52,992 bases of DNA from contig SOJN01000063.1 of the NCBI GenBank assembly GCA_004376575.1, forward strand, positions 1 through 52,992. Reading direction: 5' to 3'. Each line of letters begins with the position of its first letter. Position 1 is the first letter of the stretch. This DNA is from a candidate division TA06 bacterium (GTDB lineage Bacteria; Hydrothermota; DG-26; E44-bin18). The position numbers and the translations under genes are program-made. Below the pieces are notes generated by a model, which was given only the letters and a program-made list of their open reading frames with translations, was not told the origin of the DNA and did not search any database. This document shows, piece after piece, positions 189 through 52,648 of the stretch.

Positions 189-1712
189 CTAGAAGGAGAG
201 TTTGATTCCCATTCCCGCCTGGGCTGTTTCGAGAATCTTGTAGAGGTCAATGCCTTGAGCCATCGTCTCCCAGGAGGTTCCAAGATATGTGAGTGTGTTC
301 GCGCTGAGTGCTGCGTCGAATTCAAGAAAAGGAGTGAGCTGAAGAGATGTGCCAACTACGGCCGTGCCGGAGGGAACATCCATGTTAAGGTCGGCAAACT
401 GAATGGTTCTTCTAGACAATTCGATTGTGGAATGGAAAGACATGACCTTGAGGGGCTTCACCTCAAGCCCGACAACAAGAAAATAGAGGTTTGAGGAATT
501 CTTTTCCAGAGAGAACGATCTGCCTGCATCCACGGCGAGCGTTAAGATTGGGAAGTGTATGGCTGCTCCGATGCGGACCTTTGCCTCGGCAGGCATCCTG
601 TAGATAGTGCCTTGCATGGCCATCTCCCCATCCTCCAGTGGTATTGAGGAGAGATCAACATCGATGCTTCCATATATCCTTCTCCCGGTTGAATCAACCT
701 GTATATTACCGCCAAAGCCTTCTATGGTTGGTGTTCCCATGGCGATTGATGAGCTCGACTCGTACGTTGACGTGAGTGATACGGGTGTGTTCAGCTCTAC
801 AGCCACCCCGATCCCTGCGTGCTCCCCCTTTGCCTGGGTTCCCAGAACCAAGGCGACACAATCACCCTTGATCTGACCTGTACCGCTGTAGCCAAGCAGC
901 GTCTGCCTGCTGATTGAGGCTGTTCCCTCAAGTTCTACGTGCCAGTCTCCCGAATCTGCAGGAACAGTCCCGGTCAATCTGCCCTCACCATCTATTTTGA
1001 TGTCCGATTGGACATAGCCTTCTATTGAATAGAGCTTGATTCCAGCGCCGATACTAAATGGGCCCAGTTTGTGGGCCAGGGCAATCATCGTGGGTCTCTG
1101 GTCAAGCTCAGAGTCTATTTTTCCATCAAGGTCGAGTTGAACCTCACCCTCTATGTGGAAGACGACCGGGATTTCCACACCGTCTGGAAGTCCAGGTATC
1201 TCTTCACTGGTGAGTGTATAAGGGATATCCACGTCCAAAACCTGAAAAATGCTTTGGGTTCCAGATAGATGGATTCCAATATGTTCTGGTTCGAGAAATC
1301 CGAGACTTGCATGGAATATGGGCGTCCTGGCGGCGAGTGAAAATTGCTCGATTCCGCCCTTCCTCCTTAGGAGGAAATTCAGCGGCACCTTGACCTCGCC
1401 GACCATTTCTCCTGCGTCGAACGACAACTGGCTGTTTGATCTCCAGCTTCGCCCTCCAGCCATGGCAAGGGCAATCTCGAAGTTCTTCACGTCCGTGAGC
1501 GCAGCGGGGTTGATGGCCGCTCCTCTGATCCCCTCTGCCATTCCCACGTGGCAGGATTTGAGACTCAGGGCACTAAGGCTCAAAAAAGAAGGGCTTACAG
1601 ATATGACACCCGTGAGCGAACCAACATAAGAGCTCTGCTCCTGTGCCAGGCCACCTGAGCTGATCATCATAATCAGAAGTAAACCAACGCTGATTGAAAA
1701 CAAACTCTTCAT
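189..1712 (-). CDS. Exported beta-rich, probable outer-membrane protein of unknown function
   Basis: I do not recognise a specific family. The start is placed at the ATG at 1712, where an AGGAC ribosome site lies just upstream on the minus strand and a clear Sec signal peptide begins (MKS, then a hydrophobic core through LLLIMMISSGG, cleavage near LAQ). The in-frame ATG at 1784 would bury that signal behind 24 residues. The mature part, about 485 residues, has no further membrane helix. It has many short alternating segments, a GAAINPAAL motif after the signal like that of many small-barrel families, and a C-terminal phenylalanine (IKLSF), typical of outer-membrane barrels. It is transcribed divergently from the thiamine genes and has no operon partner in the window. 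The outer-membrane location is inferred from composition and both termini. Confidence 0.7.
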   Translation of the reverse strand: MKSLFSISVGLLLIMMISSGGLAQEQSSYVGSLTGVISVSPSFLSLSALSLKSCHVGMAEGIRGAAINPAALTDVKNFEIALAMAGGRSWRSNSQLSFDAGEMVGEVKVPLNFLLRRKGGIEQFSLAARTPIFHASLGFLEPEHIGIHLSGTQSIFQVLDVDIPYTLTSEEIPGLPDGVEIPVVFHIEGEVQLDLDGKIDSELDQRPTMIALAHKLGPFSIGAGIKLYSIEGYVQSDIKIDGEGRLTGTVPADSGDWHVELEGTASISRQTLLGYSGTGQIKGDCVALVLGTQAKGEHAGIGVAVELNTPVSLTSTYESSSSIAMGTPTIEGFGGNIQVDSTGRRIYGSIDVDLSSIPLEDGEMAMQGTIYRMPAEAKVRIGAAIHFPILTLAVDAGRSFSLEKNSSNLYFLVVGLEVKPLKVMSFHSTIELSRRTIQFADLNMDVPSGTAVVGTSLQLTPFLEFDAALSANTLTYLGTSWETMAQGIDLYKILETAQAGMGIKLSF

Positions 1713-3101: not shown

Positions 3102-5759
3102 ATGGAAGATTTTTCGGAACAAGCCCAATCAGGGTCCGATTTAACGTTTCAGAACTTCGTTGCAGGAGAATGCAATTCGGCTGCCCTTGCAGCAACACGG
3201 GAAGTCTCAGAATCGCCTGGTATCAAATACAATCCTCTCTACATTTACTGCGGCGTGGGTCAGGGGAAGAGCCATCTTCTTCAAGCGCTGGGTTGGGACT
3301 TCAAGAGGAGAAACCCGAACAGCGCTGTTCTCCTTGTGAATGGAGAGGAGTTCTCTGAGGAATTTGGGCAGGCAGCGGACAAGCAGGCTTTCAGAGAAAG
3401 GTACTCACAGCCGGCCCTTCTTCTCATCGACGACTTTCACCTCTTGTCAGAAACTGCCAGAACCGAAATCCTGAGGATCTTCGAAACACTTCAGTCTAGG
3501 AAGAAACAACTGGTGCTCACTAGCCTTCGCAATCCACAAAGGATGACAATGGATGAGAGACTGAAATCGAGGATTGAGGGTGGCCTCGTGTGCAAGATTC
3601 TTCCCCCCGATCTGAATACGCGAATAGGTATTCTTAAGCTGAGGGCCAAGAAAGCAGGGGTGAGTATCAGTCAGAATGTTCTTGAGGAGATAGCGGGGAG
3701 GGTGATTTTGAATGTGCGCAAGCTGGAGGGCGCAATCAACAGGTTGGCAGTGCTCTCAAAGGCGAAGGGTGAGGAGATATCAGTCGAATTCGTTGAATCT
3801 GCGCTCAGAGACATGATACCCGAATTTCCCAGTGAGGGGGCGGCAGCTTATAAAGAACCGGTTGAAGGGGGGCAGGAGGAATTCGGCGACTTCGTCCTGG
3901 AAGTTGCGAAGACGATGTCAGTTATAAGGCAGGAGCCGTCCGAAGAAGCGAGAATGAGGGAGGCTTACGCTGAGAAGCTCTATGTTTGGGAAATGAAGGG
4001 ATTCAATGTGGGCAGGTTGAAAGCTGCCATGGACAAGAAAATGGATGTTGTGGCAAGGGAATTCATTACATTCACGTCCAATGTGCAAAGGCTGATAGAA
4101 CTCCAGAACAGATACGGCGCCCTAAATGCGAAACGTTTTCCAGATGAGCAGGCAGAGATAGAGGAACTCCTGTTCAATCCAGACGCTCTGGAGGAAGTGA
4201 CCAGGCGCATAAATTGGCTGGAATCCAGAGTTTCGGCGACATCACTCGATCTCATAGAGGACTACACTTTCGAGAGATTCTCAGTAGATAGCCCCAATCA
4301 GGAGGCCCATAAGCTCTGCCGCTCTGTCGCGGAATCGCCGTGGACCTGTCCTGACGTGATATTCCTGTGGGGCGGGCAGGGGACAGGGAAAAGCCATCTC
4401 ATCAGCGCAGTGGCGAGGGAGCTGTACACGAAACGAAGCAACATAAATGTTTTCTTGCTCCACGGTGAGATTTTTGTGGACGATCTAAAGATGGAAAGGG
4501 GAAGACATACGAGGGGAAAGTTGAGGGCGAGATGTCTTGAGGCAGACCTTCTCCTGGCTGATGACGTCCAGGCAATCTTTGAGAATCAGATCTCAGCAAA
4601 CGAGTTCATGGCCATACTTGAACAGCGTGTTGAGCAGAAAAAGAAGATGATTCTTGTTTCCGATCTCCCGCCTGAGAAAACCTACATAGATCCGGGCTTT
4701 ATGAGACTCATGTCGAAAGGTGTTGTCCACGAAATAGGTGCGCCCACCGAGAAGCTGAAGCAGGCGATCGCCTGGGACTACCTCCTGAGGAAAGAAGTAA
4801 AGGTCAGTCAGGGGGAGATAGAAGAGGTCTGTGCAGGTGTCAAAGACAACTTATGGGAACTGATGGACAGACTTGATCAGGTCGTAGGAGGGAGGCGTGG
4901 AGAGACTGCACTCGTGGAAGGTACTCCTGTTGTGGAAGACAGATCAGCCTACCGACCTGTTGTAGAGAAAGCCAAAGTCAAGCCTCCTGTGGAAGAGGCC
5001 GAAGAGGTGGCTGCTCCACCTTTAGAGGAACAAAAGCTTGATCAGGTGTTAGAAGAGAGGCCTGCGGAGACAATTCCTGTTGAAGGTACTCCCACCACAA
5101 TAGACAGGTCAGCCTACGAACCTGAGCCAGAGAAGGCAGAACCTGAGCCTTCTGCGGAAGAGGCCGAAGAGACGCCTGGGCCTGATCTATTGGTGGAAGA
5201 GAAGCTCAGCGAGATTCATCCAGGTGAAGGTGCCCCTGCTGAGGAGGCAGAGGTCAAGCCCTTTGTCGAAGAGGCTGAAGGTGCCCCTGCTCCTTCTTTG
5301 GCGGAGCCCGGCCTTGACCTGGTGGTAAAAGAGAAGTTCAGCAAGATTCACGTGGATGAAGGTACTCCCGCAGAAGAAGACACATCTGCCCCTCGGCCAG
5401 CAGCAGAGGAGGTTGAGCCTTCTGTGGATGAGGCGGAGGAAGTGGCTGCTCCGCCCGCGGAGGAGCCCGACCTTGAAAAGGTATTGGAAGAGCGCTTTGG
5501 AGAGACTGTTGCACCGGAAGGTGCTCCTGTTGAAGAGGATAGGTCTGCGTACGAAACAGTGCCAGGAATGGCAGAAGAAGTGGTTGCTCCCCCTTTGATG
5601 GAAGGTGAAGAGAGAGAGCCGGAGGCGGAACCTGTTGCTGAAGCTGAGGTGCCTCCGAAAGAAGTAAAGGAGGGTCACCCATCTGAGCACGGACGGGCGG
5701 AAGAAATGATGGACGCAGAGTGGGATGTTGACGAAGAAAGGCTGATCGAAGGGCCGTGA
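3102..5759 (+). CDS. Tandem DnaA-like AAA+ ATPase with acidic repeat tail
   Basis: An 885-residue protein not matching any standard replication protein. Residues 15-240 form a DnaA-type AAA+ module: YNPLYIYCGVGQGKSHLL Walker A (51-57), LLLIDDFHLL Walker B (D110-D111), LVLTS sensor 1, SRIEGGL with a possible arginine finger (R157), and NVRKLEG sensor 2 (204-210). Residues 260-385 are helical (EKLYVWEMKGFNVGRL). Residues 388-590 form a second DnaA/DnaC-like module with Walker A GGQGTGKSH (424-432), Walker B LLLADDVQ and sensor 1 ILVSD. Residues 591-837 are five Glu/Pro/Ala-rich repeats. The domain IV helix-turn-helix that lets DnaA bind DnaA boxes is absent, so this is not the initiator. A Hda-like regulator, remodeller or scaffold ATPase is possible. 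It is followed closely by DUF4388 and TPR genes, suggesting one complex. Confidence 0.85.
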   Translation: MEDFSEQAQSGSDLTFQNFVAGECNSAALAATREVSESPGIKYNPLYIYCGVGQGKSHLLQALGWDFKRRNPNSAVLLVNGEEFSEEFGQAADKQAFRERYSQPALLLIDDFHLLSETARTEILRIFETLQSRKKQLVLTSLRNPQRMTMDERLKSRIEGGLVCKILPPDLNTRIGILKLRAKKAGVSISQNVLEEIAGRVILNVRKLEGAINRLAVLSKAKGEEISVEFVESALRDMIPEFPSEGAAAYKEPVEGGQEEFGDFVLEVAKTMSVIRQEPSEEARMREAYAEKLYVWEMKGFNVGRLKAAMDKKMDVVAREFITFTSNVQRLIELQNRYGALNAKRFPDEQAEIEELLFNPDALEEVTRRINWLESRVSATSLDLIEDYTFERFSVDSPNQEAHKLCRSVAESPWTCPDVIFLWGGQGTGKSHLISAVARELYTKRSNINVFLLHGEIFVDDLKMERGRHTRGKLRARCLEADLLLADDVQAIFENQISANEFMAILEQRVEQKKKMILVSDLPPEKTYIDPGFMRLMSKGVVHEIGAPTEKLKQAIAWDYLLRKEVKVSQGEIEEVCAGVKDNLWELMDRLDQVVGGRRGETALVEGTPVVEDRSAYRPVVEKAKVKPPVEEAEEVAAPPLEEQKLDQVLEERPAETIPVEGTPTTIDRSAYEPEPEKAEPEPSAEEAEETPGPDLLVEEKLSEIHPGEGAPAEEAEVKPFVEEAEGAPAPSLAEPGLDLVVKEKFSKIHVDEGTPAEEDTSAPRPAAEEVEPSVDEAEEVAAPPAEEPDLEKVLEERFGETVAPEGAPVEEDRSAYETVPGMAEEVVAPPLMEGEEREPEAEPVAEAEVPPKEVKEGHPSEHGRAEEMMDAEWDVDEERLIEGP
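4872..5612 (+). repeat. Five acidic E/P/A-rich tandem repeats inside the AAA+ gene
   Basis: Codons 591-837 encode about five degenerate units of 37-55 residues. The shared frame begins LDQVLEER or similar, continues with an EGTP or EGAP turn, then often DRSAYEP, then EEAEEVAAPP. Units start near residues 591, 646, 701, 738 and 791. The third is shortened. The stretch is highly acidic and proline-rich and should be an extended, flexible linker or binding platform. Confidence 0.8.
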
Positions 5760-27912: not shown

Positions 27913-29244
27913 TTGGAGGCAAAGATAAAAAGGGCAACCTGTCCAGCAATCATCATGGCAGCCTTGGTGGCTCCTTTCGGCATAGCCTTGGCTGAACCTG
28001 CAATGCCAGACTCCGTCGTGAGGGTGGGGGCATGTGCTACGCCAGGGATTGCTTGGGGTGTGTTCGTGCAGGGCGACTACGCCTATGTGGCGGACAGAGG
28101 GGCAGTAACAGTAGTAGATGCGACGGATCCCTCCTTTCCTTGGGTCGCTGGTACACTCAATGATCCGCTAGCTTGGGCATTGGGACTCTTCGTTGAGAAT
28201 GCCGTTGCATACCTAAACTGGACTGCATTGGGCAATGGCTTTTCCACGTTGGACGTTTCCAACCCCGATTCACTCTATGTCATTGGCTGGTGCTATGTGC
28301 CGCCAGCTGGCGGCCCGGATCCGACGGGCGTCTGTACAGTAGATACCATAACCTATTTGGCAAATGGTGATGACGGCTTGGGTATTATCAATGTGTCGGA
28401 TCCCGCATCACCAGATACTGTGACGTACTTCGATACGCCTGGATATGCGCTTGACCTCTCCACACAGGACACACTCGTCTTCATTGCCGACTATGATAGT
28501 CTTGTGATTGTGAACGTCGCTGACGTTCTGAACCCTTATCGTGTTGGTGCGGTCAACATGCCCGACAACTGCTACGGTATCTCTGTGGCTGGTGAATATG
28601 CGTACGTCGCATGCAAGGGCGGTTTTGGCTTTGGTAGTCTCGAGGTGGTTAATGTTTCTGATCCGTCTTCTCCCCAGATAGTCGCCAGTGTTGACAACAT
28701 CGTAGGGGACCCGCTTGATGTTTGGATTTCAGGCAGCTATGCCTATGTGGCTGCCGCAGATTACCCGTCTATTGAGGGAGGAGTAAGGGTAGTAGATATC
28801 TCTGATCCACTCAGCCCAAGTCTGGTGGCGAGCTACGATACACCAGGGGATCCAAGAGGTGTATTTGCAGTTGGCGACCTTGTGTTCGTTGCTGACTATG
28901 ACAGTCTGCAGATACTGAGACATATTGCGACAGGTATCAATGAATCAACGGTTGAGCAGCAACCAAGGGTCTTGAGGTTACGACAAAACCAGCCCAACCC
29001 ATTCACCGACTTTACGACCGTCAGATATGAACTACCAACCGCAGGCTCGGTTACGTTGGAAATCTATGACGTCACAGGGCGTCTTGTGAGAACACTGGTT
29101 GATGCGGCTCAACCTGCCGGCTTACATACAGCCATGTGGGATGGTAGAGATGAAGCAAATGGAAAGCTAGCAAGCGGTGTCTATTTCTGCCGTCTGACAA
29201 CCGAGTCAGGCACTCTGTCCAACAAGATGCTTCTGGTTCGTTAG
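27913..29244 (+). CDS. Secreted LVIVD-repeat protein with FlgD-like C-terminal tail
   Basis: 443 residues. A signal peptide (hydrophobic IIMAALVAPFGIALA, cleavage near ALA-EP) precedes about seven LVIVD-type repeats of roughly 45 residues (YAYVADRGAVTVVDATDP, LVFIADYDSLVIVNVADVLNP, GGVRVVDISDPLSP). These should fold as a beta propeller. From about residue 355 there is a FlgD-Ig-like tail: QNQPNPFTDFTTVRYELP, VTLEIYDVTGRLVRTL, MWDGRDEANGKLASGVYFCRL. Such tails mark exported surface proteins in FCB-group and related candidate phyla. No secretion machinery for it is in the window. The start is uncertain: TTG at 27913 has no ribosome site, and the ATG at 27955 also lacks one. Confidence 0.82.
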   Translation: MEAKIKRATCPAIIMAALVAPFGIALAEPAMPDSVVRVGACATPGIAWGVFVQGDYAYVADRGAVTVVDATDPSFPWVAGTLNDPLAWALGLFVENAVAYLNWTALGNGFSTLDVSNPDSLYVIGWCYVPPAGGPDPTGVCTVDTITYLANGDDGLGIINVSDPASPDTVTYFDTPGYALDLSTQDTLVFIADYDSLVIVNVADVLNPYRVGAVNMPDNCYGISVAGEYAYVACKGGFGFGSLEVVNVSDPSSPQIVASVDNIVGDPLDVWISGSYAYVAAADYPSIEGGVRVVDISDPLSPSLVASYDTPGDPRGVFAVGDLVFVADYDSLQILRHIATGINESTVEQQPRVLRLRQNQPNPFTDFTTVRYELPTAGSVTLEIYDVTGRLVRTLVDAAQPAGLHTAMWDGRDEANGKLASGVYFCRLTTESGTLSNKMLLVR

Positions 29245-46532: not shown

Positions 46533-46656
46533 ATCTCAGCCACTTTCGCTCCGTGCAAGAAGTGCAGAATAGGCCAGCCGATAAGGGGTCAATCTAGACC
46601 GTTTCTGCGCCGCTAAGTACAGGGAAGTAAAGGCGTTGTGCATTGTGACCCGTTGA

Positions 46657-46672
46657 TGGCATATATCTTGCT
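46657..46672 (+). promoter_or_regulatory. Sigma-54 promoter 1
   Basis: TGGCATATATCTTGCT matches the -24/-12 consensus TGGCACRNNNNTTGCW at all but one specified position, with the GG and GC pairs separated by the required 10 bases. Transcription should begin near 46683, 19 bases before the ATG at 46702. Just upstream, GGTCAATCTAGACC (46588-46601) is an inverted repeat that could be part of an activator site. Confidence 0.75.
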
Positions 46673-46701
46673 GCGTCATGTTGGAGTGAGAAGGGGGTGT
46701 G

Positions 46702-47082
46702 ATGGAGAGGGTACTTGTGGTGGATAAGGATCAACTCTCAGCCAGGTCCATTGTGGGCGCGGCATCTGGCATTGGAGTCGGAGTCGATCTTTGTGAGGGG
46801 ACGACCGAGGCGTTGAAGAGGTTGAAATCTCACAAGTACTGTTCGGTGATTGTTGACATCGATAATGCCGGGACAAACCCCACCGATGTCGTAAGCGCTT
46901 TCAGGGGCGCTTCTCCAGGGACGAGCATTATTACCTTCACTGCCAGAAACCGCCTGGAACTTGAGAGGAAGATCAGGTTGAAAGGCGTCTTCTACTATAT
47001 GGTTGGACCGCTCAGCGAAATCGAATTCAAGGAGGCCTTAGAAGGTGCCGTAAGGGCAGCCGATCACGGTCGATTTGAATAG
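46702..47082 (+). CDS. Degenerate receiver (REC-like) protein 1
   Basis: 126 residues, a stand-alone response-regulator receiver fold: VLVVDKDQLSARSIV (acidic pocket), CSVIVDIDNAG (phospho-acceptor position, D52), SIITFTARN (conserved T), then VFYYMVGP where the usual lysine of the KP motif is replaced by glycine. Classic phosphorylation switching needs that lysine, so this is probably a pseudo-receiver. It has a close paralogue at 49441. It is led by sigma-54 promoter 1 and followed by a terminator, so it forms its own transcript. No output domain is present. Confidence 0.82.
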   Translation: MERVLVVDKDQLSARSIVGAASGIGVGVDLCEGTTEALKRLKSHKYCSVIVDIDNAGTNPTDVVSAFRGASPGTSIITFTARNRLELERKIRLKGVFYYMVGPLSEIEFKEALEGAVRAADHGRFE

Positions 47083-47105
47083 TAACGTTTTGTTGTAACG
47101 AAATA

Positions 47106-47135
47106 GCCCTGGTTTTGCGGCCGGGGCGTTTTTTT
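47106..47135 (+). terminator. Rho-independent terminator after receiver 1
   Basis: GCCCTGG (47106-47112) pairs with CCGGGGC (47121-47127), including one G-U pair, and is followed by a T-run (47129-47135). It lies 24 bases after the receiver gene and isolates it from the next sigma-54 promoter. Confidence 0.75.
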
Positions 47136-47397
47136 GCCGAAATTTCGCAATTTGCTTTCATGACGCGATAGATTTTCGCCTTTGGCAAGTACTGGCCGTC
47201 TTTTTTTATACCATTTTTGGAATGAATTAGCTTCTGCCATTCTGGCAGTTTTGCACACTCCTGTAATCGCAAAAAGACAGAAGTTAAGTTTTAGGGGCAG
47301 TTAGGTTCCCAATCCCGCCTCATCCGGCACGCTCTAAAACCGCCTGCACAGCCCATCTTCCCACGAAGCGCTCTCTTGAACCTCTAGGACGCTGATA
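47136..47397. other. Intergenic region before sigma-54 promoter 2
   Basis: No gene seen. A smaller hairpin, CTGCCA (47234-47239) with TGGCAG (47243-47248) followed by TTTT, could be a weak terminator. The rest may hold activator binding sites for the promoter at 47398, but I could not identify a repeated motif shared with promoter 1. Confidence 0.6.
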
Positions 47398-47413
47398 GGG
47401 CACGGTTTTTGCA
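47398..47413 (+). promoter_or_regulatory. Sigma-54 promoter 2
   Basis: GGGCACGGTTTTTGCA fits the -24/-12 consensus TGGCACRNNNNTTGCW except for the first base. GG and GC are 10 bases apart. The start is expected near 47424, about 22 bases before the ATG at 47446. Confidence 0.75.
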
Positions 47414-47445
47414 ATAGTCTTGGGCTGGAGGCGTCAAGAGGAAAA

Positions 47446-48330
47446 ATGAGTAGACACAAGAGAGCTGTATCTAAGCTGATTCTGGCAGGAGGAGGGGCCC
47501 TCGTGCTCCTCATTCTGGTCTGTACGGAGGCTGAGGCTGTCTCCATCAACTGGGGTACAGCAGGTAATCCCATCTACGGTGAAGGTGGGGTGGGATCCGA
47601 CCTTCTCGCGAGGGGTGATGTGGTCCAGTTGATTTGCGACAGAGCCCAGGACGGTATTGATCCGCCTGGGAAGGACGGAATGCCGACAGGTGATGATGAA
47701 CTGATACATACGTCCTATATAGGCCACGGAAGCTTTTTTGAGGGTGAGTTCTCTGACAATGTGCTCACGGGGATTGTGGGTATAGGCGATTTCCTCTACG
47801 TGAGAGCGTGGAATGACTCGGTGCTGTTGAGAGCCGCCCGGTTTGGGGACACTCGACAGCACGATCCTCAAGAATGGGTTGTTGACAACAGTATTCAGTT
47901 TACGCTTAACGCCACTGAGAATGGATCTTGGGCAGCCACCTTCTACAAGCTGAAGATTCTCTCCAAGAGATTGAGAGCCTTCCGCCCGGGGGCGAGTCCA
48001 GGTGTGGCGGACCTGGTAGATTTGGGTGATGGTGCAGCCATTTTGTACCTCAACCGACCCAATCCATTCAGCAGCTCGACAATGCTCGGGTTCAGCTTGG
48101 TAGGATGCGCGGCTAGCTCGAGGGCAGAACTGAAGATTTACGCTGTTAGTGGTTCTCTGGTAAGAAACTTGTTTTCTGCAGAAAGCGTTCAAGGTGATCG
48201 GTGGGTCATCTGGGACGGTAAGGATGATTCTGGCAGTGATGCAGGGAGCGGAATATATATCTGCAGGCTGAGGATTTTCGATGGAACGCGCACTGCAGAA
48301 CTTTTGGCGAAGTTGGTCTACGCGCGGTGA
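47446..48330 (+). CDS. Secreted protein with FlgD-like C-terminal tail
   Basis: 294 residues. A signal peptide (SKLILAGGGALVLLILV, cleavage near AEA-VS) precedes a unique domain of about 180 residues (INWGTAGNPIYGEGG, RGDVVQLICDRAQDGIDPPGKDGMPTGDDE), followed by a FlgD-Ig-like tail: LYLNRPNPFSSSTMLGFSL, ELKIYAVSGSLVRNL, VIWDGKDDSGSDAGSGIYICRL. The acidic loop with GKDGMPTGDDE may bind calcium. The start codon follows AAGAGG. It is the first gene of the transcript from sigma-54 promoter 2 and lies 32 bases before the PilX-like gene. I do not recognise the central domain. Confidence 0.8.
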   Translation: MSRHKRAVSKLILAGGGALVLLILVCTEAEAVSINWGTAGNPIYGEGGVGSDLLARGDVVQLICDRAQDGIDPPGKDGMPTGDDELIHTSYIGHGSFFEGEFSDNVLTGIVGIGDFLYVRAWNDSVLLRAARFGDTRQHDPQEWVVDNSIQFTLNATENGSWAATFYKLKILSKRLRAFRPGASPGVADLVDLGDGAAILYLNRPNPFSSSTMLGFSLVGCAASSRAELKIYAVSGSLVRNLFSAESVQGDRWVIWDGKDDSGSDAGSGIYICRLRIFDGTRTAELLAKLVYAR

Positions 48331-48362
48331 CTGGCGCATGAGAGATAAGGGAGATTGCTATT

Positions 48363-49415
48363 GTGAGATCTAGTCCAAGTGAGAAGAAATTTGCCATCTT
48401 GGTGCCACTGGCAGTTGTCTCTGTGACTGTAGTACTGGCTGCCTCGGTTGTGAGGTTGACGGCCTCAAGCTTGGAAGCCCGAGTGATGAACTTCTACAGG
48501 GTTCAGTCTGAATATGTGGCCAGAGCCGGTGTCGCAGAGGCGCTAACCCGGCTTGCAAATGGTGAGATTCATGACCCTGATGAGGGGAATCCTGATTGGA
48601 GAGCCGAAATATGTGTAGGCTTGAGAACAGAGAGTTCTCCTCCAATTTATCGATATACAAGTTATCAGACCGACCTTAGTTACGGGACACTCAAAGACCC
48701 GGTTACTGTGACGTACCTGTTGGATCGGGGAAGCATAGTCTACTTTGACCCGGATAGTAAGATGAAGACGACAAGACCTGGTGACTATCCCGTATATGTG
48801 GCTCAGGCCGTAGGTGGTAAAGGGAGGTCTGCCAGTAGATTCAGAGGTGAGTACATAAGCTATCCATTTCAGCCTCGAATGGAAGAAGCGTTCATCTGCG
48901 AGAGTTGGCCAAAGCCTCTTTCCAGGAACCGCATCTGTTCAAACGAGCATGGCACACACCTTCCGGCGTTGACGCGACCACCGTTCTGTGCGAGGTACCA
49001 CGTTTCGAGGAAGGACGACCTGCCGGTTCCTTCTGGTCGCATTCCCAGTACTAGTGAGGTTCTGGGAATATCTCCTGCCGAGCTGATTACCGTTTTGAGA
49101 GCGGCCAGTGTAAACAGGAGCCTGGAGAACGAACCCGTCGGAATAACATTTTTCTCCACGCATGCACGGTACGACAGAAGCGTGTCGGGTTCAGGGCTCC
49201 TCTATGTGGTAGGTAATTTGGTCGTTAAGGGCGACTTTCGTTTCAATGGGTTGGTGTATGTGGAAGGTAGTGCCAGTTTTGCTGGGGATGTTTGGGTAGT
49301 TGGGGGGCTGGTAGTCAGCGGGCACTGCAATGTTGGCCCTACTGTGCTGTACTCAAGAGAGGCGATTGTTGAGTCTATGAGGAATTCAATTCTAGTGGAT
49401 CTGTCTAGGATATGA
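48363..49415 (+). CDS. PilX-like membrane-anchored protein with beta-helix-like C-terminus
   Basis: 350 residues. One N-terminal membrane helix (FAILVPLAVVSVTVVLAASVVRL) is followed by FYRVQSEYVARAGVAEALTRLANGEI, the pattern of PilX-type minor-pilin N-termini (YAAEAGLEEAL). The glycine and glutamate of a standard prepilin cleavage site are not apparent, as in many PilX-type proteins. The C-terminal 100 residues (GSGLLYVVGNLVVKGDFRFNGLVYVEGSASFAGDVWVVGGLVVSG) read as a short beta-solenoid. GTG start. It may be a pilus-tip or envelope component. No pilin secretin or ATPase is in the window. Confidence 0.75.
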   Translation: MRSSPSEKKFAILVPLAVVSVTVVLAASVVRLTASSLEARVMNFYRVQSEYVARAGVAEALTRLANGEIHDPDEGNPDWRAEICVGLRTESSPPIYRYTSYQTDLSYGTLKDPVTVTYLLDRGSIVYFDPDSKMKTTRPGDYPVYVAQAVGGKGRSASRFRGEYISYPFQPRMEEAFICESWPKPLSRNRICSNEHGTHLPALTRPPFCARYHVSRKDDLPVPSGRIPSTSEVLGISPAELITVLRAASVNRSLENEPVGITFFSTHARYDRSVSGSGLLYVVGNLVVKGDFRFNGLVYVEGSASFAGDVWVVGGLVVSGHCNVGPTVLYSREAIVESMRNSILVDLSRI

Positions 49416-49440
49416 GGAATCAAGTTCTTGGAGGTGAATT

Positions 49441-49875
49441 ATGGAACACAGAGTTCTAGTCATTGGAGATGATGAGCACAAGAAGGAGGAGCTCTCGGGT
49501 CTCACCGCTGTATTCGGGATGCCATCCGACAACTGCAATTGGTCTGATCTCGCTGTGAAGAGGTTGAAATCCTTTCGATACTCCGCTGTGGTGGCTGACA
49601 TAAGTGGTGGAAACCTTTCACCAGAAGACTGTGTGACTCTGGCAAAGGCCGCAGCTCCGTATACTCCAATCATAGTTGTTGCAAGCGAAAACGATCTTGA
49701 CACCGAAAGAATCGTAAGACAGATGGGGGTATTCTACTACATGGTTAGACCATATCACAGAGAAGAATACATTGAAGCGCTTGGTGATGCTGTCGAATTC
49801 GCCGCGGGCCTCAGATCAAAAGAGGTTATTGCTTCAGAGATTCTTTCATCTGTTGGCAAAGACGAGTGGAGGTGA
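49441..49875 (+). CDS. Degenerate receiver (REC-like) protein 2
   Basis: 144 residues, paralogous to the receiver at 46702. Shared segments include KRLKSFRYSAVVADISGG (KRLKSHKYCSVIVDIDNAG in the other) and GVFYYMVRP (GVFYYMVGP). D10-D11 and D53 sit at the acidic-pocket and acceptor positions, but the beta-5 lysine is arginine. A C-terminal tail of about 30 residues (GLRSKEVIASEILSSVGKDEWR) is extra. The ATG follows GGAGGTG. It is co-transcribed with the PilX-like gene 26 bases upstream and lies five bases before a small gene. Confidence 0.82.
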   Translation: MEHRVLVIGDDEHKKEELSGLTAVFGMPSDNCNWSDLAVKRLKSFRYSAVVADISGGNLSPEDCVTLAKAAAPYTPIIVVASENDLDTERIVRQMGVFYYMVRPYHREEYIEALGDAVEFAAGLRSKEVIASEILSSVGKDEWR

Positions 49876-49879
49876 GACT

Positions 49880-50038
49880 ATGTCCGGAGCGATTCTGATT
49901 GATCGGAAACTCGAGGATACCATTTTGGTGGGTGAGAACGATGAAACCAAAAGCGTAGCAGATGCTCGTTTTGAGGAGGAGGTTAACTGGATCCTTTTGA
50001 AGTTGCATCTAGAGGCTTTTCATACACTGTCCAGGTGA
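49880..50038 (+). CDS. Small protein of unknown function
   Basis: 52 residues starting MSGAILIDRKLEDTILVGENDE and ending NWILLKLHLEAFHTLSR. The ATG at 49880 is six bases after GAGGTGAG, a good ribosome site. A longer frame from 49772 overlaps the receiver and is rejected. It is acidic in the middle and amphipathic at the end. Its tight position between receiver 2 and the sigma-54 activator suggests a protein-protein regulator, but I have no family match. Confidence 0.6.
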   Translation: MSGAILIDRKLEDTILVGENDETKSVADARFEEEVNWILLKLHLEAFHTLSR

Positions 50039-50060
50039 AGTTTATCTAGGAGGAACTGTT

Positions 50061-51440
50061 TTGTCTTTCACAGTTTTGGCCATACGCGAGGACAAGTACA
50101 AAGAGTCTGTAGAAAATATTCTGAACGGTGATCAGTACGATACAATCTGGGCAAAAAATGAGGATGAAGTGATCGAGCATGCTGCATCCGGAGTGGGTGG
50201 ACTGATTCTTTTCGATGCAGACATGCCATACGTGGAGAGAGAGAATCTTCTGGAGAGACTTAGGAAGGTGAATGGCCATCTGAAGGTGGTGGGACTTACA
50301 AAGGATCCCACTCTTACAGATGCGCTGGAAACCCTGCGGATGGGGGCCGATGACTACATTCACATTCCTTCGGAACTGAGAAGACTGAGGAAAATTGCGG
50401 ATAGCGCCTACAAGAAGTGGGTGAAGTCGCGCGACCAGAAGACTCCCTATGACGGGCACAAGAAAAGGTACGCGTTCGATGCCGTGATAGGTGAAAGTGA
50501 CGGGATAAAAGAGGTTCTCCATATTGCCAGAAAGGTTGTGGAAACTGGTGCGAGCCCGGTGCTGATCCGTGGTGAGACAGGAACCGGCAAGGAACTGATT
50601 GCTCGTGCAATACATTACAACAGCTCAAAAGCTGACCAGCCGTTTGTTGAGATTAATTGCACGGCCATTCCTGAGACCCTTTTGGAGGCGGAGCTCTTTG
50701 GCCACGAAAGGGGAGCCTTCACTGACGCCAAGAGGCAGAAGAAGGGCCTCTTTGAGCTGGCCGATGGGGGAATGCTCTTTCTGGACGAGATTGGGAAGAT
50801 GTCCGTCAATCTCCAGATCAAACTTCTCAAGGCAATTGAGGACAAGCGCTTCAGAAGGCTTGGTGGCACCAGTGACATAAAGGTCAAGGTGAACATCATG
50901 GCCGCGACCAACATCAACCTGGAGGAAGCGCTTAGCGAAGGTACTTTCAGAGAGGATTTGTACTTCAGACTGAACATGGTGTGTATAGAGGTACCGCCTC
51001 TGAGGAAGAGAGGGCGTGATGCGATTATCCTGGCGCGCCATTTTATCACCAGGTTCAACGAGGAATATGGGAAGAATGTTACTGCCATGTCGCCAGACGC
51101 TGAGGAGTGCTTGTTGAACTACTCCTGGCCTGGTAATGTACGGGAACTGAAGAATGTGGTGGAGAGGTCTGTTCTTCTTGGTTCAGGCGACCTGATAACC
51201 CTGGAGTCGCTTCCACCCGCGTTGAGATCTGGAAAGAGGATTCGCGAAAACATGGGCGCCGGGAACATTATCGTGCCCATTCCTCCAGGAGGCATCTCTC
51301 TAGCTGATGCCGAGAAGATCCTGGTGAAATCAATATTGAAAATCACAGGATGGAACAAATCGAAAGCCGCCAGGATACTGAAGATCTCCAGGCCCAGATT
51401 GGCACGAAAGATACAGAAGTACGAGATCGTTAAGGAGTAG
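50061..51440 (+). CDS. NtrC-family sigma-54 activator with degenerate receiver
   Basis: 459 residues. Residues 1-115 are receiver-like (FDADMPY near the acceptor site, but no N-terminal DD pair, and HIP in place of KP). The central AAA+ domain has GESDGIKEVLHIARKV, Walker A GETGTGKELIARAIH, GHERGAFTDAKRQK (the sigma-54-binding GAFTGA loop, as GAFTDA), ADGGMLFLDEIGKM (Walker B) and REDLYFRLN (arginine fingers). NVRELKNVVER follows, and a Fis-type helix-turn-helix ends the protein (NKSKAARILKISRPRLARKIQKY). TTG start behind AGGAGGAA. It should activate the two sigma-54 promoters upstream; how its activity is gated is unclear. Confidence 0.93.
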   Translation: MSFTVLAIREDKYKESVENILNGDQYDTIWAKNEDEVIEHAASGVGGLILFDADMPYVERENLLERLRKVNGHLKVVGLTKDPTLTDALETLRMGADDYIHIPSELRRLRKIADSAYKKWVKSRDQKTPYDGHKKRYAFDAVIGESDGIKEVLHIARKVVETGASPVLIRGETGTGKELIARAIHYNSSKADQPFVEINCTAIPETLLEAELFGHERGAFTDAKRQKKGLFELADGGMLFLDEIGKMSVNLQIKLLKAIEDKRFRRLGGTSDIKVKVNIMAATNINLEEALSEGTFREDLYFRLNMVCIEVPPLRKRGRDAIILARHFITRFNEEYGKNVTAMSPDAEECLLNYSWPGNVRELKNVVERSVLLGSGDLITLESLPPALRSGKRIRENMGAGNIIVPIPPGGISLADAEKILVKSILKITGWNKSKAARILKISRPRLARKIQKYEIVKE

Positions 51441-52126: not shown

Positions 52127-52648
52127 ATGTCTTCTTTAGGGAAAAAGGCAGCGGCTGCACTCATTGGACTCGTTGGCATAGGTTTTGTGGTGGCGGGGTG
52201 TGGTGAGTTCGACGTTCCCTCGAGTGCTACTAATGGAGTCGAGAATATCCGATTCTTTCGTGACACGAGGGCAACCCTGGGGCCCAGCTACGTTGAAAAA
52301 GTGATCAAGGCCGAGGACGGGGGCACACTGACGCTCAACAGGTACACTATCGTTATTCCACCAGGAGCGTTGGAACGCAACACGAGGATATCGATTTCCG
52401 AGCCGATGCCCGGGTATGTCCTGGGAGACTTCGGTCCTGAAGGGATCCATTTCAAGAAGCCCGTAGAACTCTCGATGACATATCAATTCCTCGATCTGGG
52501 CGGTATTCAGGAAGATCGACTCACCATCTACTGGTTCAATCCTGAAACAGAAACCTGGTTCGATCTTCTAGCTCACGTTGACAAAGAAACACAGACCGTA
52601 ACATTGGAGATTGACCATTATTCGCGCTATGCACTTTCTGATCACTAG
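52127..52648 (+). CDS. ZU5-like lipoprotein
   Basis: 173 residues. The signal ends in the lipobox VVAGC with C25 the predicted lipidation site. The rest resembles ZU5/GAIN-like surface domains: GGTLTLNRYTIVIPPGALERNTRISISEP, then GPEGIHFKKPVELSMTY, YWFNPETETWFDLLA and a final IDHYSRYALSDH. Such domains sit in exported adhesin-like or cell-surface proteins of uncertain function. ATG behind GGGGTGAT. It is not obviously linked to the activator upstream, since 686 bases lie between. Confidence 0.82.
   Translation: MSSLGKKAAAALIGLVGIGFVVAGCGEFDVPSSATNGVENIRFFRDTRATLGPSYVEKVIKAEDGGTLTLNRYTIVIPPGALERNTRISISEPMPGYVLGDFGPEGIHFKKPVELSMTYQFLDLGGIQEDRLTIYWFNPETETWFDLLAHVDKETQTVTLEIDHYSRYALSDH

Follow-up and report, generated by a model that had tools for sequence, protein, structure and literature searches.

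The window analyzed here, 52,992 bp, is the whole of contig C63 of a candidate division TA06 bacterium (host genome G000; 3.0 Mb, 97% complete). Just 3' of division genes of the ftsQ-ftsA-ftsZ type it carries six genes, for two stand-alone receivers (R1 and R2), an exported protein (F), a PilX paralogue (X), a small protein (S) and an NtrC-type activator (A), with two sigma-54 promoters, P1 and P2, preceding R1 and F. We tentatively propose, with a confidence that stays a little below even, that the F-X-R2-S-A operon and R1 together constitute a cell-envelope module under sigma-54 control in one bacterial order, governed by a kinase-light circuit like that of FlbD. An earlier note made from this DNA had reported the six genes and the two sigma-54 sites, and all of them were found where it had placed them. 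Further, all six genes, S among them, had codon scores within the spread seen for real genes (5th percentile, 0.09; 95th percentile of wrong frames, 0.004).

Among the genomes available for comparison, the host genome is alone in its family. We compared it with G001, the sole same-order relative among them, and G002, which belongs to the same class. G001 is a metagenome-assembled genome with short contigs, and conclusions on synteny refer to this one same-order genome. Phylum-level searches, made with the N-domain of F and with S, covered 147 genomes.

Sigma-54 promoters and transcription units

P1 and P2 had the two highest sigma-54 scores in the window (15.2 and 14.6 bits). Both possess a GG-N10-GC core in a TGGCAY / TTGCW context with a gene downstream; the pattern DGGCAYN5TTGCW was matched only three times in the whole window, and resampling gave chances of 0.1% and 0.3% for a match per intergenic gap. 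Genome-wide, the motif was detected 38 times in the host versus 4 times for the reversed control and 37 versus 2 times in G001, which makes it approximately ten to twenty times commoner than the control in these genomes. Thus, the scores, the resampling and the genome-wide excess agree with the sigma-54 control that had been suggested for both sites. A third sigma-54-like site, GGGCATGTTTCTTGCA, lies at positions 1749-1764 of the window (minus strand), 36 nt 5' of a gene (189-1712, minus strand) encoding a 507-aa signal-peptide protein without a Pfam match.

R1 is a separate unit that consists of its own promoter, the gene and an intrinsic terminator (Table 1), and this terminator sets it apart from the F-X-R2-S-A operon. 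The latter is a tight operon, the gaps between its genes being 32, 25, 4 and 22 nt. When the region and loci related to it were searched against Rfam, no RNA family was matched except one unrelated tRNA.

Table 1. Features of the sigma-54-linked cluster (positions in the window).
Feature	Position	Strand	Remarks
P1, sigma-54 (-24/-12) promoter, TGGCATATATCTTGCT	46657..46672	+	29 nt 5' of R1 ATG
R1, stand-alone receiver, 126 aa	46702..47082 (ATG start)	+	directly 3' of ftsZ; phosphoacceptor Asp kept, beta5 Lys replaced by Gly
Intrinsic terminator	47106..47127	+	3' of R1; 9-bp stem, T7 tail
Weak candidate activator site, TTCTGCCATTCTGGCA	47232..47247	+	about 150 bp 5' of P2; 13/16 match at 46554-46569 (-), 5' of P1
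P2, sigma-54 promoter, GGGCACGGTTTTTGCA	47398..47413	+	32 nt 5' of F ATG
F, exported protein, 294 aa	47446..48330	+	signal-like N-terminus, undescribed N-domain of about 130 aa, FlgD/type IX-like Ig domain at the C-terminus
X, PilX paralogue, 350 aa	48363..49415	+	N-terminal membrane helix, no Gly at prepilin cleavage position
R2, stand-alone receiver, 144 aa	49441..49875	+	C-terminal tail; Asp kept, Arg for beta5 Lys, Ala for beta4 Thr
S, 52-aa protein	49880..50038	+	strong Shine-Dalgarno, coding-like codon use (score 0.25)
A, NtrC-type activator, 459 aa	50061..51440	+	Fis-type HTH; GAFTDA loop in AAA+; receiver with Ile for beta5 Lys and one residue of the acidic pair missing

The activator and the stand-alone receivers

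A matched the Pfam models Sigma54_activat (PF00158, 226 bits) and HTH_8 (PF02954, 40 bits) and contains a degenerate Response_reg domain. With an AAA+ region carrying Walker A (GETGTGKE) and Walker B motifs and a Fis-type helix-turn-helix (HTH), it is an NtrC-type activator, as the earlier note had recognized. PADLOC gave only generic AAA+ matches, for A, and the protein set of an anti-phage defence system was absent; that assignment was rejected. In the receiver tree, no branch was longer than that of the receiver of A, which keeps the Asp and Thr residues. In the sigma-54-contact loop of A, GAFTDA replaces GAFTGA, and among the 25 activators read, Asp at this position was otherwise found only in the sister of A in G001 (contig C6) and in one activator of G002. 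The same Gly-to-Asp change in NorR (G266D) leaves the protein able to activate and lets it escape fully from control by its regulatory domain (PMC2941729). In A the change is natural, and NorR possesses a GAF domain, not a receiver.

R1 and R2 are 39% identical; R1 scored just over the Response_reg cutoff (31 bits) and R2 under it (20.5 bits). The residues expected of a phospho-regulated receiver are incomplete in R1, R2 and A: all three have lost the beta5 Lys, the acidic pair is incomplete, and R2 has also lost the Thr. The earlier description of two paralogous degenerate receivers is thus supported. S, likewise predicted, is upheld as a 52-residue protein by its codon score and Shine-Dalgarno sequence; it had no Pfam match and no homologue among the 147 phylum genomes.

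When receivers of this type were sought in four genomes, nine stand-alone receivers, all from G000 or G001 and R1 and R2 among them, grouped as one clade (100/99), apart from activator-fused receivers. Four of the nine members adjoin receiverless activators (C46 at 93 kb and C65 in the host; C130 and C182 in G001), and these activators themselves form one clade (100/99). The beta5 Lys is kept in all five members located in activator clusters and lost in all four located at ftsZ or F loci, namely R1, R2 and their G001 counterparts (exact p = 0.008, uncorrected for kinship and for a comparison picked after the alignment was inspected). Clade receivers in both genomes often have their own sigma-54 site or lie in an operon behind one. 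Because four receivers of the clade directly adjoin receiverless activators, the idea that R1 and R2 may be activator partners gains indirect support. A second, different receiver lineage occurs in a conserved cluster of an activator, a sigma-54 site, a stand-alone receiver and a histidine kinase (G000:C46:86426-93193 and G001:C135).

These receivers would also be compatible with a broader scheme, which we regard as doubtful. NtrC function would be split throughout the order, with a lineage-specific family of stand-alone receivers, several with their own sigma-54 promoters, acting in trans on receiverless activators; some copies, R1 and R2, would have turned into pseudo-receivers that no longer depend on phosphorylation and that tune an activator, constitutively competent, of type IX-exported and pilus-linked envelope proteins.

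The nearest worked-out precedent for the proposed circuit is FlbD/FliX of Caulobacter, in which FlbD has a divergent receiver, no known kinase and the partner FliX (PMC3096577). Like A, FlbD is a sigma-54 activator with a divergent receiver and no known cognate kinase, and it drives genes for a surface structure in a manner set by a partner protein. Unlike the present case, the partners are not homologous to R1, R2 or S, FliX is not a receiver and the outputs of FlbD are flagellar; binding of R1, R2 and S to A is putative. PilS/PilR shares with the cluster the use of sigma-54, an NtrC-type activator and a link to pilin genes, and such a kinase-activator pair stands on host contig C142 beside a sigma-54-preceded FimT-PilV-PilW-PilX operon. 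In contrast, no kinase lies near A, the receiver of A is degenerate and there are additional stand-alone receivers. No histidine kinase was found among the window proteins scanned, a subset of the open reading frames.

In the circuit that we propose, A would work without a dedicated kinase, much like FlbD, and would activate its own operon in a positive feedback and possibly R1 as well. R1 and R2, perhaps with S, would bind A, or receiverless activators encoded elsewhere, as phosphorylation-independent modulators. We infer both that A drives P1 and P2 and that R1 and R2 modulate A.

The envelope proteins F and X and their linkage in G001

The earlier proposal that F is an exported protein with a FlgD-type tail was supported by a match to Pfam FlgD_ig (27.4 bits; cutoff, 27). 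Further, the tail resembled the C-terminal region of PorU, the type IX sortase (E = 1.3e-7). Foldseek with a low-confidence model of F matched PorU (6za2) best and also PorZ and FlgD; this AlphaFold model, built from five sequences (mean pLDDT 60), lends weak support to the tail only. The N-domain had no match in Pfam, NCBIfam or solved structures by sequence search, and it was found in 2 of the 147 phylum genomes, G000 and G001, with four copies in each. A scan of public genomes with this domain returned G001 alone, the host genome possibly having been omitted by the scan.

The host genome possesses SprA, PorU-like and PorV-like proteins, the set that is looked for with type IX cargo. SprA was above its cutoff (494 bits), as was a PorV-like protein (119 bits), and a PorU-like protein scored 320 bits, under the equivalog cutoff of 420. 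On host contig C46, the PorU-like and PorV-like genes adjoin two F homologues; F homologues 5' of PorU-like genes occur in both genomes, in G001 on C151. As in Bacteroidetes type IX cargo, F has a C-terminal Ig-like tail of the PorU/FlgD type in a genome with SprA, PorU-like and PorV-like genes. It differs from such cargo in its undescribed N-domain, its sigma-54 context and its tail, which scored under the TIGR04183 cutoff (13.1 bits versus 23). With the tail under this cutoff, we describe F as type IX-like and do not file it as a member of type IX cargo. Surface export of F by the type IX route is likely, as judged from these gene and tail similarities, and is only inferred because of the TIGR04183 score. 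A clearer type IX-type tail than that of F, with FlgD_ig and Por_Secre_tail both above cutoff, is present in an LVIVD-repeat protein encoded elsewhere in the window (27913-29241).

X had no Pfam match and hence no PilX_N hit. Its closest relative elsewhere in the host is a PilX_N protein (32% identity, E = 7e-13), the PilX of a complete pilus locus on C142 (pilT, FimT, PilV, PilW, PilX, PilM-Q). X resembles the type IV minor pilin PilX in its N-terminal helix region, an ARAGV-EAL region and a similar strand-rich C-terminal segment. Unlike PilX, it has no prepilin cleavage site with Gly at -1: the aligned position is Lys in X and in its G001 homologue, which comprises only about 187 aa, and Gly in PilX proteins with a readable N-terminus. 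Thus, X is probably a non-processed, membrane-anchored PilX derivative and, lacking the cleavage glycine, probably not itself a pilin. A structure prediction of X from the single sequence (pLDDT 42) was discarded. In the proposed module, the type IX route would carry F to the surface, and X would stay in the inner membrane and link the module to the minor-pilin machinery of type IV pili.

Conserved synteny had been set beforehand as a check, with genes unlinked in all relatives as the refuting outcome; this outcome did not arise, but the linkage held only in part. The order ftsA-ftsZ-receiver is kept in G001; a receiver 3' of ftsZ was found neither in G002 nor in other genomes with a readable downstream gene. 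P1 is not conserved, because the R1 ortholog in G001 has no sigma-54 site. The adjacency of F and R2 is also kept (G001 C247), divergent from FimT-PilV-PilW, and this contig ends 38 bases past the R2 counterpart. In contrast, the X homologue lies on another contig, C310, 3' of a PilX with its own sigma-54 site, and the relative of A is elsewhere. The ends of C247 and C310 do not overlap, and gene order alone suggests that the two contigs adjoin. An element of approximately 140 nt occurs exactly twice in G001, 5' of F (C247:2824-2960) and 5' of the X homologue (C310:1548-1690), and thereby ties the two genes together despite their separate contigs; its first 60 nt can form a hairpin, and it had no Rfam match.

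Alternative explanations and significance

Several observations weigh against the module as we propose it. The phosphoacceptor Asp is kept in R1, R2 and A. The F family is confined to two genomes, and in G001 no sigma-54 site is recognisable for F. The closest G001 relative of A is unlinked to F and R2; it combines a GA[FY]TDA loop with a canonical receiver and an adjacent membrane histidine kinase. The loop alone therefore does not imply kinase independence, and we rejected GAFTDA as proof of it; a loop change that came first, followed by receiver decay in the lineage of the window, is a plausible history of A. Further, no significant enhancer common to the regions upstream of P1 and P2 was found, since the best 16-mer match (13/16) was equalled or beaten in 22 of 150 shuffles (15%). 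The earlier suggestion that A drives both promoters thus did not gain support. Neither does "self-contained", the earlier note's term for the circuit, apply: the host genome has at least 14 sigma-54 activators besides A, the relative of A is unlinked and stands beside a kinase, the R1 ortholog lacks a sigma-54 site and S is a singleton.

Because no enhancer could be assigned, two other explanations persist, both of which we consider unlikely and about equally so. The first is that A is an ordinary two-component activator of an orphan pair, whose kinase, a PilS-like membrane kinase, is encoded elsewhere, R1 and R2 being phosphate sinks or drifting relics. The Asp and Thr kept in the receiver of A, the kinase that follows its relative in G001 and the probable membrane kinase genes with sigma-54 sites on host contigs C80 and C54 are consistent with this. 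However, the beta5 Lys and one residue of the acidic pair are missing from the receiver of A, which has the longest branch, and the loss of Lys from R1/R2-type receivers in both genomes is a repeated pattern rather than random drift. The second is that P1 and P2 are driven by other activators, either the receiverless ones at C46 and C65 or the PilR-like activator next to the pilin operon, A being a mere output of the operon that acts elsewhere. The number of further activators, the pairing of the R1/R2 clade with receiverless activators at four loci and the shuffle result favor this explanation, whereas the position of A as the last gene of the P2 operon, together with that of its G001 relative directly behind a sigma-54 site, fits autoregulation. 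A separate apparent fusion of 1709 aa, encoded at G000:C46:81211-86340, joins a Ser/Thr protein kinase region to a sigma-54 AAA+ activator.

That these proteins and their partners form or decorate a pilus-like structure had been suggested earlier; this reading, which would make X a minor pilin and place F at the tip or in the shaft of a fibre, is less probable still. Part of the suggestion stands, as X is derived from PilX and both F-R2 and the X homologue lie near minor-pilin genes in G001; the remainder is opposed by the missing cleavage glycine of X and its homologue and by the F tail, which points instead to the type IX route. Least probable is that the genes are neighbors without a common function, what remains of a more extensive type IX/pilus region, R1 and A being in decay: partial dispersal in G001, the loss of Asp even from its ftsZ-linked receiver and the singleton S agree with this, but the tight operon spacing, the clean coding signal, the two linkages that G001 conserves and a repeat element placed there solely 5' of F and the X homologue do not.

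Elsewhere in the window, positions 3102-5756 encode an 885-aa protein with two DnaA-type AAA+ regions (the DnaA model matched twice), followed by a DUF4388-TPR protein, and positions 52127-52648 encode a small lipoprotein-like product, in which a ZU5-like stretch scored just under cutoff.

Control of the bacterial exterior by sigma-54 is already an established theme (PMC3162934). In the literature searched, no paper connected sigma-54 activators to type IX secretion or to stand-alone receivers, which is no proof of novelty, and we found no description of a stand-alone receiver clade paired with receiverless activators. If the proposed module is real, an uncultured lineage would link sigma-54 with pilus genes and type IX-type export, and sigma-54 activators would be regulated by separately encoded rather than fused receivers. 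Because a laboratory host can express every part, the circuit can be tested without a culture of the organism.

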